Source of the DNA: Struthio camelus
Taxonomy: Eukaryota > Chordata > Aves > Struthioniformes > Struthionidae
Assembly (NCBI RefSeq): GCF_040807025.1
Contig: NC_090954.1
Coordinates: 13,099,501 to 13,163,500 of the forward strand
Reading direction: 5' to 3'
DNA length: 64,000 nucleotides
Each line of letters begins with the position of its first letter. Position 1 is the stretch's first letter. The translations under genes were made by a program, and so were the position numbers. Positions 7,492 through 64,000 of this stretch are shown piece after piece. The notes beneath the pieces were generated by a model. That model did not search any database. It was not told where the DNA came from and saw only the letters and a program-made list of their open reading frames with translations.

Positions 7492-10400
7492 GTGGGTGCC
7501 GGGCCGCGCCCCCGGGGGGGCCCCGCCGTGGGCCTGGGCCTGGGCCTGGGCCTGGGCCTGGCTGGGATCGGGCATCGGGGCTGGGGCGGTGCGGGGCGAA
7601 GGGTAGTGGGGGACTGGGAGAGCCGTGTGGGGCCCAGGGGGGATCCGTGTGGGTGGGGGGGGTATGGGGCGAGGTGGATCTGTGTGGGGTCGGAGGGGAT
7701 CCGTGTGGGTGGGGGGGGTATGGGGCGAGGTGGATCTGTGTGGGGTCGGAGGGGATCCGTGTGGGCGGGGGGGGTATGGGGCGAGGTGGGATCTGTGTGG
7801 GGTCGGAGGGGATCCGTGTGGGTGGGGGGGGTATGGGGCCAGGTGGATCTGTGTGGGGTCGGAGGGGATCCGTGTGGGTGGGGGGGGTATGGGGCCAGGT
7901 GGATCTGTGTGGGGTCGGAGGGGATCCGTGTGGGTGGGGGGGGTATGGGGCGAGGTGGATCTGTGTGGGGTCGGAGGGGATCCGTGTGGGTGGGGGGGGT
8001 ATGGGGCGAGGTGGATCTGTGTGGGGTTGGAGGGGATCCGTGTGGGCAGGGGGGGTTGGGGCAAGGGGGGATCTGTGTGGGCTGAGATCCGTGTGGGCTG
8101 AGGGGTGTGTGGGCAAAGTGGATCTGTGTGGGGCCAGGGGGCATCTATGTGGGTGGGGGGGTGTGAGGCAAGGGGGGATCTGTGTGGGGGGAGATCCCTG
8201 TGGGGCAAGGGGAGGATCCATGCAGGCAGGGGGGTGTGTTGGGCAAGGGGAGATCTGTGTGGGTGGGGGGGGTGGGGGGGCAAGGAGGGATCCGTGTGGG
8301 CTGGGATCCGTGTGGGGCAAGGGGGGGATCCGTGTGGGCTGAGGGCTGTGTGGGGACAAGGTCTTTGTGCTGGCTGGGCCCTGCCCCAGCAGAGATGCCA
8401 GGGCCAGGAAGGTGCTGCCAGTCCCCATGGCGGAAGAGCTGGTCAGTCGGACTCACTCCATAGCGCCAGGGATTTGGCCGCATCCACTGATCTTCCCCCT
8501 CCTCGGTGGGGATGGCTGCAGTTTGGGGTCCAGCTGCGTTGGGTCCCCTCCTGCCCCATGGCCACGTTGCAGGATGGAGGGCTGCCTGGCTACAGGGCTC
8601 TTGTCCCACTTGGCTTTGGCAGTCATTTGCACCCTGAAAACACTTCCCTCCTGTAGTGTTCCCTGTCTGGCTCCAGGAAGGTCCCCTCCTTCCACACACC
8701 CTCCCCCAAAGTGTTCAATTATGACGAAATCAATAAAATGCTAATTACACTTGAAAATGCTAATAGGAACTGCTGTCCCTTAATCCCTTTCCATTTTGAA
8801 TTGTCTGTGAGGAGTTTAGCTGAAAACTTGACAAGGCCCTGAGAAGCTGGAGCTAGCCTTGAAGTTGGTGCTGCTGTGAGGAGGGAGTTGGACCAGATGG
8901 TCTCGAAGGTCCCTCACAGGTATTCTGTGAGGGACACCCCAAGGACATCATACAGAGGGGTACCGAGAGCTCTAGGTTTTGCTGAGGATCTCTTTGTGGC
9001 ATGTGTTGACCTTTTGGTTGGGGAGAATATGAACCCACATCTTTGGGGCCAAAATGCAAGTGTGGTGCATGAGTGCTCACAAAACCGATGGTATGCTGCC
9101 AGCTGCACCATCCCTCATTGGTCATCTGCCTCTTTTCAGAAACACGAGTTCTTTGTGGACATGACCTGTGAAGGCTGCTCCAATGCAGTCACCCGTGTCC
9201 TGCACAAGCTGGGAGGTGAGTTGAGCTATCAGTGCTGGGTATATGGCAGCCAGCTTACTGGAGGGACAGCCAGCTCTAGGCCTGGATATCACTCCCCTGG
9301 GGTCCCGTGTTTTGCAAGGTTGGCGTTGTGGGTAAAAGCTGAAAGCAGCTAATTGGAAACCTCTTCTCCCTGCCCTCACCACTCTGCTCCGAGCATGCTG
9401 ATTAGTCAGCAACAAATCACTGATTATTAGCAGGACTCTTGTGACCCCTGGAGAAATGGCGAGGGAGGGAGGAGCTGCCCCGGTGGCTGCAGGAGGCTCC
9501 AGTCACAGGTATCTCTGTGAATCACCAAGGCCTTATCCTGAACCCACTGGGAGCTGCACTGGTAGAGCCCTGCTCAGACCGTCTTGTCAGAAGGAAGGCA
9601 GGTGGATGACCTACCAGGCATTGTCCCCAAGGAGGCCCGAGATGTCTATGCTCAGGAAGCCCCCAGCTTCCAAGTAGAGTAGTCTCTCTGAAAAGCTGCT
9701 GAGCAGAGAGCTCAGGGATTCCCTCCACAGCCTGTGTTTTATACCACAAAGAAAATTATAATCTATGCTTCCTTTGTGGTGAGAATACCAAGAGGGAAGG
9801 ATCAGGCCTACACTCATCAGTCATAAGGACTTGTCATCCCACTCCCCTGCACCACCAAGGGAGAACGGCTTTCAGTCACCAAGCCAAAGGCTCTGGGACT
9901 TCTCCAGGACCCCATTACCTGGCAGTAGCAATTCCACTTTCCCTGTATGTGTTTGCCAGCTCTTCCCTCCTCCCCTCAGTCTTGAACATGCTGACCAATT
10001 TCTGCCCAATGTGATGATGTGGCAGAGCTCTCAAAGCTGGTACGCTCCTGCAAGTTTTATGAAAATAAGTGATTGGATACAGATTTCATGTGCAGTTCTT
10101 CTCGCTGGGTTGAAAGTGGCTCACCTTTATTAGCCACTGAGAGTTCTACATGGAAAAGTGCCTGGTGTTTCTTCCTACTTGCAGCTGCTAGCTGGCACTG
10201 CCACTGAAAGAACCTGTCCCCTGACCCTGTCCCAACCCTTACGCCAGTCACTCCTTAGTGCCCATCACACACTGAACCACAGCACAGACTGGGCTGGCTG
10301 GAGATTATAATGGCTGGTTTGAACTCAGCTCATTCTAGTTATTGCATGAGTGATTGTGCTGGTGTAAGGGGGAGCGAGCAGACTGAAGCAGTTGAGAAAA

Positions 10401-59956: not shown

Positions 59957-59985
59957 CACTGAAAAAAGCAAGTCACTGAAAAAAG
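59957..59985 (+). repeat. 12-base direct repeat just upstream of CR1 ORF1
   Basis: CACTGAAAAAAG occurs at 59957-59968 and again at 59974-59985, with 5 bases between. The second copy abuts the first codon of ORF1. It may be part of the CR1 5' UTR or an insertion-junction duplication. Confidence 0.85.
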
Positions 59986-60942
59986 GTGTCAGGCTGCAGG
60001 CAGTGCCTGGGGCCTCTCCGCGAGGCCTGGGCTGACAGTCAGCTCTCCTGTGTGAGGTGTGCTGTGGTTGACCAATTGCGTCACCAGATAAAGGAGTTAC
60101 AGGAGGAGGTTAGTAGGCTGCGTAGCATCCGAGAGGATGAGCGGGAGATTGACAGGGTGTTCTCGGAGATTGTTCAGCTCCGGGAGTCCCCTGCCCCGAC
60201 TGCAGCGGAGGTGTCAGAGGGCTCAGCACCGTGTGTAAAGGTGCATCATAACGCTGTTGAAGAGGGCTGGAAGCTGGTGACCTCTCGCAGAAGGAGAAAG
60301 GCTCTTGCTCCTCCTCAAGACTTACCCTTGAAGAACAAGTTTAGCGCCCTCCAAGCCGAGGAGGAGCTGGGCATGGCTCCAAGGGAGGCAACTGGCCTGG
60401 CAGACCCTGTGCCGTGCAGGAACCCCCGGAAGAAACGGCGAGTGATTGTTGTGGGTGACTCCCTGCTGCAGGGGACAGAGGCACCTATCTGCCGACCTGA
60501 TCTCTTGTCCAGAGAGGTTTGCTGCCTGCCAGGGGCTCGAATAAGAGATGTCATGGAAAGACTGCCAAGGCTTGTCCATGCATCAGACTACTACCCTCTG
60601 CTGATCTTCCATGTGGGTGCTAATGACATGAAAGGCAAACTGGAAACCATCAAACGGGACTTCAGAGCTCTGGGAATGGTGGTGAAGGGTCTGGGAGCCC
60701 AGGTCGTTTTCTCCTCAATCTTGCCTGTGAGGGGAAAGGACAGGAGGAGGAGTAGACGAATTTTCCAAGTTAACAGCTGGCTGCGCCGCTGGTGTTGGCA
60801 ACAGGGCTTTGGTTTCTATGACCATGGGACCCTGTTTGAAGATCAACAGCTGATGGGGAGAGACGGGATCCACCTTACCAAGCGGGGCACGCGCGTCTTT
60901 GCCAACAGATTGGCCAGCCTGGTAAGGAGGGCTTTAAACTAG
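59986..60942 (+). CDS. CR1 ORF1 protein (zinc-finger-like, coiled coil, SGNH esterase-like)
   Basis: An uninterrupted frame of 318 codons from a GTG to TAG. ORF1 proteins of CR1 elements bind RNA in the retrotransposition particle and carry an esterase-like domain. A CxxC-X14-CxxC pair (Cys4, 7, 22, 25) opens the protein. A charged heptad-like coiled-coil segment follows at about 26-67, then a basic stretch RRRRK near 101-105 and KKRR at 149-152. An SGNH hydrolase domain starts near 153, with GDS at 157-159 (Ser159), GAND at 211-214 and DGIHL at 293-297 (Asp293, His296), so all catalytic blocks are present. No ATG precedes the zinc-finger part. An in-frame TGA lies at 59977 and the first in-frame Met is at residue 130. 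The GTG may be a decayed ATG. The stop is 5 bases before the ORF2 ATG. Confidence 0.88.
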
Positions 60943-60947
60943 GCAAG

Positions 60948-63881
60948 ATGGGGGAAGGGGAGTGGTATAGTGGCAGGGGAGTCAGTAAAACACCGTTCAA
61001 GTCAGGATGCCTCCAGCGGGTGCATACAACCAGGGGAGACAGCATGCAACATGGCTATGGAGGATCCTCTTGCACCTCTTCTGGGAAGCCTGTGTGCTTG
61101 ACTGGCTCTCTCAAATGCCTGTATACCAATGCACGCAGCATGGGGAATAAGCAGGAAGAGTTAGAGATCTGTGTGCGGTCGCAGGGCCATGATCTCATTG
61201 CAGTGACAGAGACATGGTGGGATAGTTCACATGACTGGGATGCTGTCATGGATGGCTATGTGCTTTTTAGGAAAGACAGGCCAGGAAGGCGAGGGGGTGG
61301 AGTTGCTCTTTATGTGAGGGAGCAACTAGAATGTATGGAGCTCTGCCTCGGGGTGGATGAAGAGCAAGTTGAGAGCCTATGGGTAAGGATTAAAGGGCAA
61401 GGTAACATGGGTGACACTGTTGTGGGGGTTTACTACAGGCCACCTGATCAGGAGGAAGTCGTCGATGAGGCCTTCTACAGACAGCTGGAAGAAGCCTCAC
61501 GATCACAGGCCCTGGTTCTCATGGGAGACTTCAACCACCCTGACATCTGTTGGGAAGACAGCACAGCTAGGCACAAACAGTCAAAGAGGTTCCTGCAGAG
61601 CATTGATGATAATTTCTTGACCCAGGTGGTGGAGACGCCAACGAGGAGAGGTGCAATGCTAGACCTTGTACTAACGAACAAAGAAGGTCTAGTTGGAGAT
61701 GTGAAGGTTGGGGGCAGCCTTGGCTGCAGTGACCATGAGATGGTGGAGTTCAGGATCCTGCGAGGAGGGAGCAGGGCAATGAGTAGGATTGCAACGCTGG
61801 ACTTCAGGAGAGCTGACTTTGGCCTCTTCGGGGACCTACTTAGGGGAATCTCCTGGGGTAGGGCCCTAGAAGGAAGAGGGGTCCAAGAGAGCTGGTTAAT
61901 ATTCAAGCGTCACTTCCTCCAGGCTCAGGATCAGTGCATCCCTCTGAGGAAGAAGTTCAGCAAAGCGGGCAGGAGACCTGCATGGATGAGCAAGGAACTC
62001 CTGGCCAAACTCCAGCAGAAGAAGGAAGTGTACAGAATGTGGAAAAGGGGACAGGCCACTTGGGAGGAATACAGGGACGTTGTCAGAGCGTGCAGGGATG
62101 CGACAAGGAAGGCTAAGGCCCAGTTGGAATTAAATCTGGCAAGGGATGTCAAGGACAACAAGAAGGCCTTCTTCAAATACATCAATAGCAAAAGGAAGAC
62201 TAGGGAAAACGTGGGCCCGCTGCTGAAAGGGGCGGGTGCCCTGGTGACAAAGGATACAGAGAAGGCAGAGTTATTGAATGCCTTCTTTGCTTCTGTCTTC
62301 ACTGCTAAGGCCAGTCCTCAGGAATTCCAGACCTTGGAGACAAGAGAGGAAGGCTGGAGAAAGGAAGACTCTCCCTTGGTTGAGGAGGATCGGGTTAGAG
62401 ATCTTTTGTCCAAACTTGACATCCACAAATCCATGGGCCCCGATGGTATGCACCCACGAGTGCTGAGGGAGCTGGCGGATGTTATCGCTAGGCCTCTCTC
62501 CATCATCTTTGAAAGGTCCTGGAGATCAGGAGAGGTGCCTGAGGACTGGAAGAAAGCCAATGTCACGCCAGTCTTCAAAAAGGGCAAGAAGGAGGAGCCA
62601 GGAAACTATAGGCCTGTCAGCCTCACCTCCATCCCGGGAAAGGTGATGGAACAGCTCATCCTGGAGGTCATCACTAAGCATCTGGAGGACAAGAAGGTGA
62701 TCAGGTGTAGTCAGCATGGATTCACCAAAGGGAAATCATGCTTGACCAATCTGATAGCCTTCTATGACAGAATGACTGGCTGGGTAGATGAGGGCAGAGC
62801 AGTGGATGTTGTCTTTCTGGACTTCAGCAAGGCTTTTGACACTGTCTCCCATCACATCCTCCTAGGTAAGCTCAGGAAGTGTGGGCTAGATGAGTGGACA
62901 GTGAGGTGGCTTGAGAACTGGCTGGATGGCCGAGCGCAGAGGGTTGTGGTGAATGGCGCAGAGTCAAGTTGGAGGCCTGTGGCTAGTGGTGTCCCCCAGG
63001 GGTCAGTCCTGGGCCCAGTCTTGTTCAATATATTCATCAATGACCTGGAGGAAGGGACAGAGTGCACCCTCAGCAAGTTTGCTGATGATACTAAACTGGG
63101 GGGAGTGGCTGACACACCAGAAGACTGTGCTGCCATTCAGAGGGACCTGGACAGGCTGGAGAGGTGGGCGGAGAGGAACCTCATGAAGTTCAACAAAGGC
63201 AAGTGCAAGGTCCTGCACCTAGGCAGGAATAATCCCATGCACCAGTACAGGCTGGGGACTGACCTGTTGGAAAGTAGCTCTGCCGAGAAGGACCTGGGAG
63301 TGCTGGTGGACACCAAGTTAAACATGAGCCAGCAGTGTGCCCTTGTGGCCAAGAAGGCCAATGGGATCCTAGGGTGCATTAGGCAGAGTGTTGCCAGCAG
63401 GTCGAGGGAGGTGATCCTGCCCCTCTATTCAGCCCTGGTGAGGCCTCACCTGGAGTACTGTGTCCAGTTCTGGGCTCCCCAGTACAAGAGAGACATGGCA
63501 CTCCTGGAGAGAGTCCAGCGGAGGGCTACCAAGATGATTAGAGGGCTGGAGCATCTCTCCTATGAAGAAAGACTGCAAGAGCTGGGCCTGTTCAGCCTGG
63601 AGAAGAGAAGATTGAGAGGGGATCTCATCAACGTGTACAAGTATCTGAAGGGGGAGTGTCAAGAGGATGAGGCCAGCCTCTTCTCCGTGGTGCCCAGCAA
63701 CAGGACAAGAGGCAATGGGCAGAAACTGAACCACAGGAAGTTCCATCTGAACCTGAGAAAAAACTTCTTCACTGTGAGGGTGACAGAGCATTGGAACAGG
63801 TTGCCCAGAGGGGTGGTGGAGTCTCCTTCGCTGGAGATATTCAAAACCCGTCTGGATGTGATCCTGGGCAATATGCTCTAG
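60948..63881 (+). CDS. CR1 ORF2 polyprotein (AP-like endonuclease and reverse transcriptase)
   Basis: An uninterrupted 977-codon frame starting with ATG. It encodes the enzyme that nicks target DNA and reverse-transcribes the element's RNA. The N-terminal apurinic-like endonuclease (about 56-275) shows the expected blocks: YTNARS at 59-64 (Asn61), TETWWD with Glu88, GVYYRPP at 160-166, GDFNHPD at 193-199 (Asp194, Asn196), LDLVLTN at 238-244 and SDHEMV at 261-266 (Asp262, His263). The reverse transcriptase follows, with NVTPVFKKG at 538-546, NYRPVSLTS at 553-561, FLDFSKAFD at 623-631, [10 protein letters not shown] at 681-690 and FADD at 711-714 (catalytic Asp713, Asp714). The C-terminal part includes a [16 protein letters not shown] segment typical of CR1. 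No stop, frameshift or missing catalytic block was seen. This looks like a recently inserted copy. Confidence 0.95.
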
Positions 63882-63973
63882 GTGACCCTGCTTGAGCAGG
63901 GAGGTTGGACTAGATGATCTCCAGAGGTCCCTTCCAACCTAAACGATTCTGTGATTCTGTGATTCTGTGATTC
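63882..63973 (+). mobile_element. CR1 3' UTR and terminal (ATTCTGTG)n repeat
   Basis: The conserved 3' UTR with GGTTGGACTAGATGATCTCC and TCCCTTCCAACC ends in ATTCTGTG units at 63946, 63954 and 63962 plus a partial ATTC. This tandem octamer is the primer-binding end of CR1 that stands in for poly(A). Confidence 0.95.
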
Positions 63974-64000
63974 AAGTCACACCCAGCCAAATACAGAGCC
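63974..64000. other. Flanking sequence after CR1
   Basis: Unique-looking sequence continues to the window end. CR1 insertions usually leave no clear target-site duplication, and none was identified. Confidence 0.6.

Follow-up and report, generated by a model that had tools for sequence, protein, structure and literature searches.

The window, by which we mean the whole 64-kb stretch of ostrich DNA analysed here (G000:C13:13099501-13163500 of the 1.45-Gb assembly that was searched), carries on its + strand a CR1 retrotransposon of 3990 bases (59984-63973). The element is bounded by a 7-bp target-site duplication, AAGTCAC, with its 5' copy at 59970..59976 and its 3' copy at 63974..63980, and is separated from the 5' copy by a 7-bp filler, TGAAAAA (59977..59983), which together with the preceding bases repeats a 10-nt stretch located 17 nt upstream in the flank. 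An earlier note on this DNA had placed the element at 59957..63973; the end is correct, but the start has to be moved to 59984, as 59957-59983 is flank with the target-site duplication and the filler. Local duplications of at least 9 nt were found at 7 of 63 CR1 5' junctions (that of the window copy included) and in 59 of 4461 control windows, and they may be a trace of second-strand synthesis.

ORF1 (59984..60942, + strand, 318 codons counted from 59986) contains a GDSL/SGNH esterase domain in residues 156-303 (60451..60894; Lipase_GDSL_2, E-value 3e-9), and its match to chain 4c1b, named ORF1-encoded protein, has an E-value of 2e-20. ORF2 (60948..63881, + strand, 977 codons) is open and exhibits matches to Exo_endo_phos (residues 76-263, 61173..61736, E-value 3e-15) and RVT_1 (residues 547-763, 62586..63236, E-value 2e-35). 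GDSLL, GAND and DGIHL are all found in ORF1, and FADD with further endonuclease and reverse transcriptase (RT) motifs in ORF2, the ORF2 motifs having catalytic roles. The open frames extend far beyond chance. The 3' UTR (63882..63944, + strand) is predicted to form two hairpins, with a fold not significantly better than that of shuffled sequences (z -1.36; 16 of 200 shuffles as good), and is followed by a clean octamer tail of 3.6 units (63945..63973, + strand), intact as had been stated. The element thus combines an AP-type endonuclease and an RT in one frame, an ORF1 bearing an esterase domain, and an octamer microsatellite that replaces poly(A) at the 3' end, as expected of CR1. No second match to it was found within the window at an E-value of 1e-5. 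Elsewhere in the window, 7639-8361 is a G-rich minisatellite whose unit lengths include 56 and 37 bp.

Truncation and youth of the window copy

ORF1 as listed opens with GTG (59986) in mid-protein, and no ATG occurs in its frame before codon 130 (base 60373). In the sister copies ORF1 has 356 aa from its ATG, against 318 in the window copy, and is preceded by a 5' leader. The window copy is 5'-truncated inside ORF1: both of its frames are uninterrupted, as the earlier note held, but it is not complete, with the 38 N-terminal residues, the ATG and the leader missing. Four short strings taken from the 5' monomers of its sisters (see below) occur on neither strand of the window.

The sisters were identified in a search with the RT region, in which 40 of 4826 candidates were scored, one of them being the window itself. 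The 39 other places among these best 40 match at 99-100% (rounded) over the whole query. We read 7 kb around 20 of them and, for the remaining 19, 1 kb at the place where the 5' end is expected; in this second group, copies with large indels would escape notice. Of the 39 loci, 11 (10 insertions) extend beyond the ORF1 start codon. In all five 5'-complete loci (four insertions) of the 7-kb set the frame continues upstream to the ATG and both frames are open, and among the 21 copies read (duplicates counted) 19 have no stop in their remaining frames, L012 and L023 having one ORF2 stop each. An open copy is therefore not exceptional here. Genome-wide exact matches number 3240 for the 32-base 3' tail, 199 for the 33-base ORF1 start and 250 for the 34-base TATA stretch, with 0 for each reversed control; the excess of tails over ORF1 starts indicates that the majority of copies have lost their 5' end, a known trait of CR1.

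In 19 independent copies (window included, without the duplicate loci L010 and L018), the 171 pairwise differences average 0.59% and range from 0.03 to 1.18%, low values that are favoured by the choice of copies by similarity. The window copy has 2 private bases out of 3990 with respect to the 18 others, shares three differences with L012 alone, and is 0.28% away from L013, a copy with a promoter array. With a rate of 2e-9 per site and year, the private differences correspond to an age of 0.25 My (Poisson range 0.03-0.9), a rough figure for copies picked by similarity. The ratios of silent to replacing differences, 24/52 for private and 12/15 for shared ones, involve too few changes to show selection. 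Recent activity of the subfamily, as proposed in the earlier note, is strongly supported by the near-identical copies on many contigs, and the subfamily is spreading in this genome now or was until very recently.

Two other readings of these data have to be weighed. Near-identity could result from segmental duplication or gene conversion instead of recent transposition; two pairs among the 20 fetched loci indeed share an insertion (L009/L010, L017/L018), and satellite families are present on C1, but the other copies differ in their truncation point, have unrelated flanks and lie on many contigs, which makes this explanation extremely improbable. We give equally little credence to the possibility that the window copy represents an undamaged source element for which GTG at 59986 is the real start: the two open frames and the clean tail would agree with it, yet in the sisters the frame goes on upstream until it reaches an ATG, with a leader before it, the bases upstream in the window are target-site duplication and filler, and the window is devoid of any monomer string. 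A complete CR1 would have an ORF1 ATG and a 5'UTR promoter, and the window copy, truncated inside ORF1, has neither. It is therefore a poor candidate for the source element it had been suggested to be, and is an ordinary young, truncated member of its subfamily. As a practical rule, an open CR1 frame tells little about activity unless the 5' end has been checked.

Contig C40 (70.4 of 1452 Mb) harbours 5 of the 40 scored copies, which is above its share, although the numbers are small. It is probably the W chromosome, since two of four CHD1-like matches, on C40 and C41, fit W and Z. The alpha-A globin exon of this genome has its highest score, among entries matched in a single stretch, with 3a59/3fs4, which are ostrich entries (146.7 bits, the next being 134.1), and would suggest a palaeognath; the beta exon gave no discrimination. 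No relatives of the element were found in viral contigs. Among other genome contigs, a single CR1-like piece (L112 3-110, 54% over 39 residues) was found in a Eubacterium MAG contig, where it is probably host contamination.

According to Galbraith et al. 2021 (PMC8665684), intact CR1s occur in many birds, and kiwis, geese and Amazon parrots have each had bursts in recent times, kiwi CR1-Y being among the recently spreading families; an open, young CR1 is thus not new. The terms UTR, ORF1 and promoter were not found in the text of PMC8665684. The ostrich element is like other avian CR1s (chicken CR1-B and CR1-F, kiwi CR1-Y) in having two frames with an esterase-type ORF1 and with endonuclease and RT in ORF2, an octamer tail, and copies that are mostly 5'-truncated. 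The very similar copies in this genome have two to three or more octamers in the tail, and do not fit the rule, given in part of the coscoroba study (PMC2612034), that the youngest CR1s have one.

Tandem 370-bp monomers at the 5' ends of complete sisters

The 5' ends of the complete sisters consist of head-to-tail 370-bp monomers that carry TATATAAG; the array period is exactly 370 bp, with TATATAAGAGCC. At its 5' end L013 has 4.1 of the 370-bp monomers, which match at 99% and each contain TATATAAGAGCC, and the counts in other copies are 9.1 (L018), 8.1 (L017), 7.1 (L033) and 4.7 (L035). A single TATA box is present in L042, L039 and L047, and none in L014, L015 and L032; overall, the copies seen range from 0 to 39 TATA boxes. 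The 100 TATA places listed, all of them on C1, were grouped by us into 32 clusters, of which one has 39 and one 15 places. In the copy with 39 TATA boxes (G000:C1:145252292-145266385; ends in L053 and L054, body L091), the 370-bp steps are followed by a leader with a short tandem repeat of its own and then by CR1 ORF1; its body is 98.2% like the window copy, with ORF1 open and an ORF2 stop after 62 codons.

In each of five arrays, monomers compared with one another are 0 or 1 base apart in 370; between arrays the distance is 0 to 2 in 370. As monomers of different arrays are also almost identical, sameness within an array does not by itself show regrowth. One variant base recurs in every third unit of L018 and a different one in every second unit of L013, a pattern that duplication of blocks would produce.

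In all 12 array loci read at the downstream end, the last unit is followed by the CR1 leader and ORF1 (four further arrays, unread at that end, lie outside this count). In L072 the monomer is immediately preceded by a piece of CR1 ORF2, either as a nested insertion or through a template jump.

Position of the 5' ends and the promoter reading

Positions of 5' ends are counted from the first T in TATATAAG, which is 0. Of 51 insertions, 31 begin 31-41 bases past a TATA box, where 1.5 would be expected from an even spread, and 20 of the 51 ends fall outside this range. The range was fixed after inspection of set A, the 10 insertions reaching past the ORF1 start (L014, L015 and L017/L018 placed by eye), and sets B and C serve as the test. 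In set A, 7 of 10 ends are within it (L015, L033 and L042 at 31-32, L014 at 33, L032 at 34, L013 at 35, L017/L018 at 41) and three outside (L047 at -16, L039 at 161, L035 at 197). Set B, in which 7 of 21 ends are within the range, derives from the 31 other TATA clusters on C1, with L088 dropped (its end is outside the piece) and satellite families of 7 and 4 loci counted once each. Its misses include L077 at 30 and L084, which was scored at 46 and realigns by eye to 32, as well as three ends grouped at 75-81 (L054, L071, L074), where the last monomer meets the leader; this group may represent a second start site or chance. Set C was drawn from the 44 exact ORF1 starts on C1, of which 36 have no exact TATA stretch beside them; L042, already seen, was left out, and the first 20 of the remaining 35 were taken. 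Here 17 of 20 ends are within the range, all at 31-37, the others being L110 at 45, L102 at 67 and L106 at 236. In ten of these 17 the start is downstream of the last TATA box and none is kept; the other seven start one monomer higher.

A TATA box sets the start of transcription about 30 bases downstream. The shared 5' end lies at this distance and is therefore best read as the start of an RNA that was copied to its end; on this reading of the sequence the shared position would be the transcription start, and the monomers would drive transcription. The stretch before the TATA box contains, by the motif names we presume, an inverted CCAAT box and TGAGTCAC. When eight set C copies, not chosen by promoter match in the 90 bases before the TATA box, were compared with L013, these 90 bases revealed a one-base difference in each of 2 of 9-10 ten-base bins. 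The TATA bin differs by 5% (a consequence of picking copies that lack the exact stretch), the leader bins by 3-15%, and the rest of the monomer mostly by 0-4%, with a peak of 9%. Low difference spans most of the monomer and not the promoter stretch alone, which counts against promoter-specific conservation.

The shared 5' end could alternatively be a place where RT stalls or where the second strand is joined, instead of a transcription start. The place recurs in every monomer, and the local duplications at some junctions (the 7 of 63 given above) suggest that joining has rules of its own. Against this, copies such as L018, L033 and L013 were copied through the place 4 to 9 times and then ended at it (a pattern that later array growth could mimic), its spacing from the TATA box is that of a start site, and the sequence preceding the box is conserved; we regard stalling or joining as unlikely. 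Still less likely, in our opinion, is that the monomers are a satellite, or an artefact of assembly, that came to adjoin CR1 fortuitously. Some arrays do lie inside other satellites, one has 39 units, and the arrays are known from one assembly; however, the invariable passage of the last unit into leader and ORF1 in the 12 loci read, and the occurrence of single-TATA copies at dispersed sites with unrelated flanks, speak for monomers that belong to the element.

Among known systems, the closest resemblance is to mouse L1Md (A, G and T monomers), which, in sections of PMC6454616, has tandem promoter monomers, a tether before ORF1, and 5' ends clustered at one monomer place from which the transcription start was read, as here. 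In the ostrich, tandem 5' monomers with a tether between them and ORF1 are found in the sister copies only and not in the window copy, and the clustering at one monomer position is that of the 31 of 51 ends. Mouse L1 belongs to another LINE clade and has AP-1 and YY1 sites at the start, a TATA box being unnamed in those sections (PMC6454616); the ostrich element has an octamer tail and an esterase ORF1, and so is not an L1-clade element with poly(A). By analogy, the sisters would work like L1Md without being L1Md, and the resemblance appears convergent. In the HeT-A telomeric element of Drosophila the promoter also lies upstream of the element's own RNA start, but it is provided by the 3' end of the upstream tandem neighbour, whereas in the CR1 sisters it would reside in their own 5' monomers.

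In sections of PMC2734521, the 5'UTR of chicken CR1-B is described as about 240 bp long and as containing E boxes, unlike the arrays of 370-bp TATA monomers in the ostrich sisters; over 90% of chicken CR1-B and CR1-F 5'UTRs are damaged, and very few chicken CR1 promoters are reported to work (PMC2734521). The same sections mention 32-bp direct repeats in the 5'UTRs of turtle and pufferfish CR1, which are likewise repeats in the 5'UTR, with a 32-bp unit instead of a 370-bp monomer with its own TATA box. No TATA-bearing or 370-bp monomers in CR1 were found in the literature searched, though Haas et al. 2001 (on CR1 5'UTRs) or Repbase may contain an earlier description, and we consider the putative tandem TATA-monomer promoter a new variant of CR1. 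The 5'-terminal monomer arrangement has been called special to mouse, and the way in which mouse L1 monomer promoters gain units has been called unclear (both in sections of PMC6454616); if the TATA reading is true, the ostrich arrays represent a second, independent origin of tandem promoters.

We propose the following cycle. The 370-bp monomers arrayed at the 5' end of complete copies would each act as a promoter of the TATA type; RNA would start about 32 bases past a TATA box, leaving the firing TATA outside the RNA, so that each new copy would have at least one promoter fewer than its parent. The lineage would survive through the spare promoters of the array and through genomic changes in array length, which would arise when nearly identical monomers exchange or slip. 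In the window copy reverse transcription would have stopped inside ORF1, making it promoterless on arrival. L014, L015, L032 and 10 of the 20 set C copies reach ORF1 from the start site and have no TATA box left; as copies made from the start site keep only the downstream TATA boxes, and some keep none, regrowth would be needed. We hold it to be highly probable that a young promoterless insertion, TATA-monomer arrays in complete sisters, and loss and regrowth of promoters together describe this family. The stronger version, in which tandem promoters of the mouse L1 style with the TATA outside the RNA arose independently, the number of promoters counts down the generations, and survival depends solely on regrowth, is drawn from sequence and seems to us evenly poised between true and false. 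The arrays may explain how a CR1 family keeps spreading.

Changes of array length are observed among copies of one insertion. L017 and L018, whose common flanks lie within a 321-bp satellite, are one monomer apart (8 vs 9), and seven loci on C1 (84.9-87.7 Mb; L056, L057, L060, L062, L064, L066, L075) share one junction in a GC-rich satellite and have 15, 4, 3, 5, 2, 3 and 1 exact TATA places. Monomer number thus varies among copies of a single insertion, and array length is not fixed once in the genome, with assembly error in such arrays a possible source of the differences. These loci, with 1-15 exact TATA boxes and with 8 vs 9 units, give a direct view of how units are gained and lost after insertion. 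A further family with a shared 5' junction (L067-L070) lies in the same region of C1 (84.9-87.7 Mb). On C20, a CR1 insertion has been amplified together with the 321-bp satellite (L017, L018, L030, L031).
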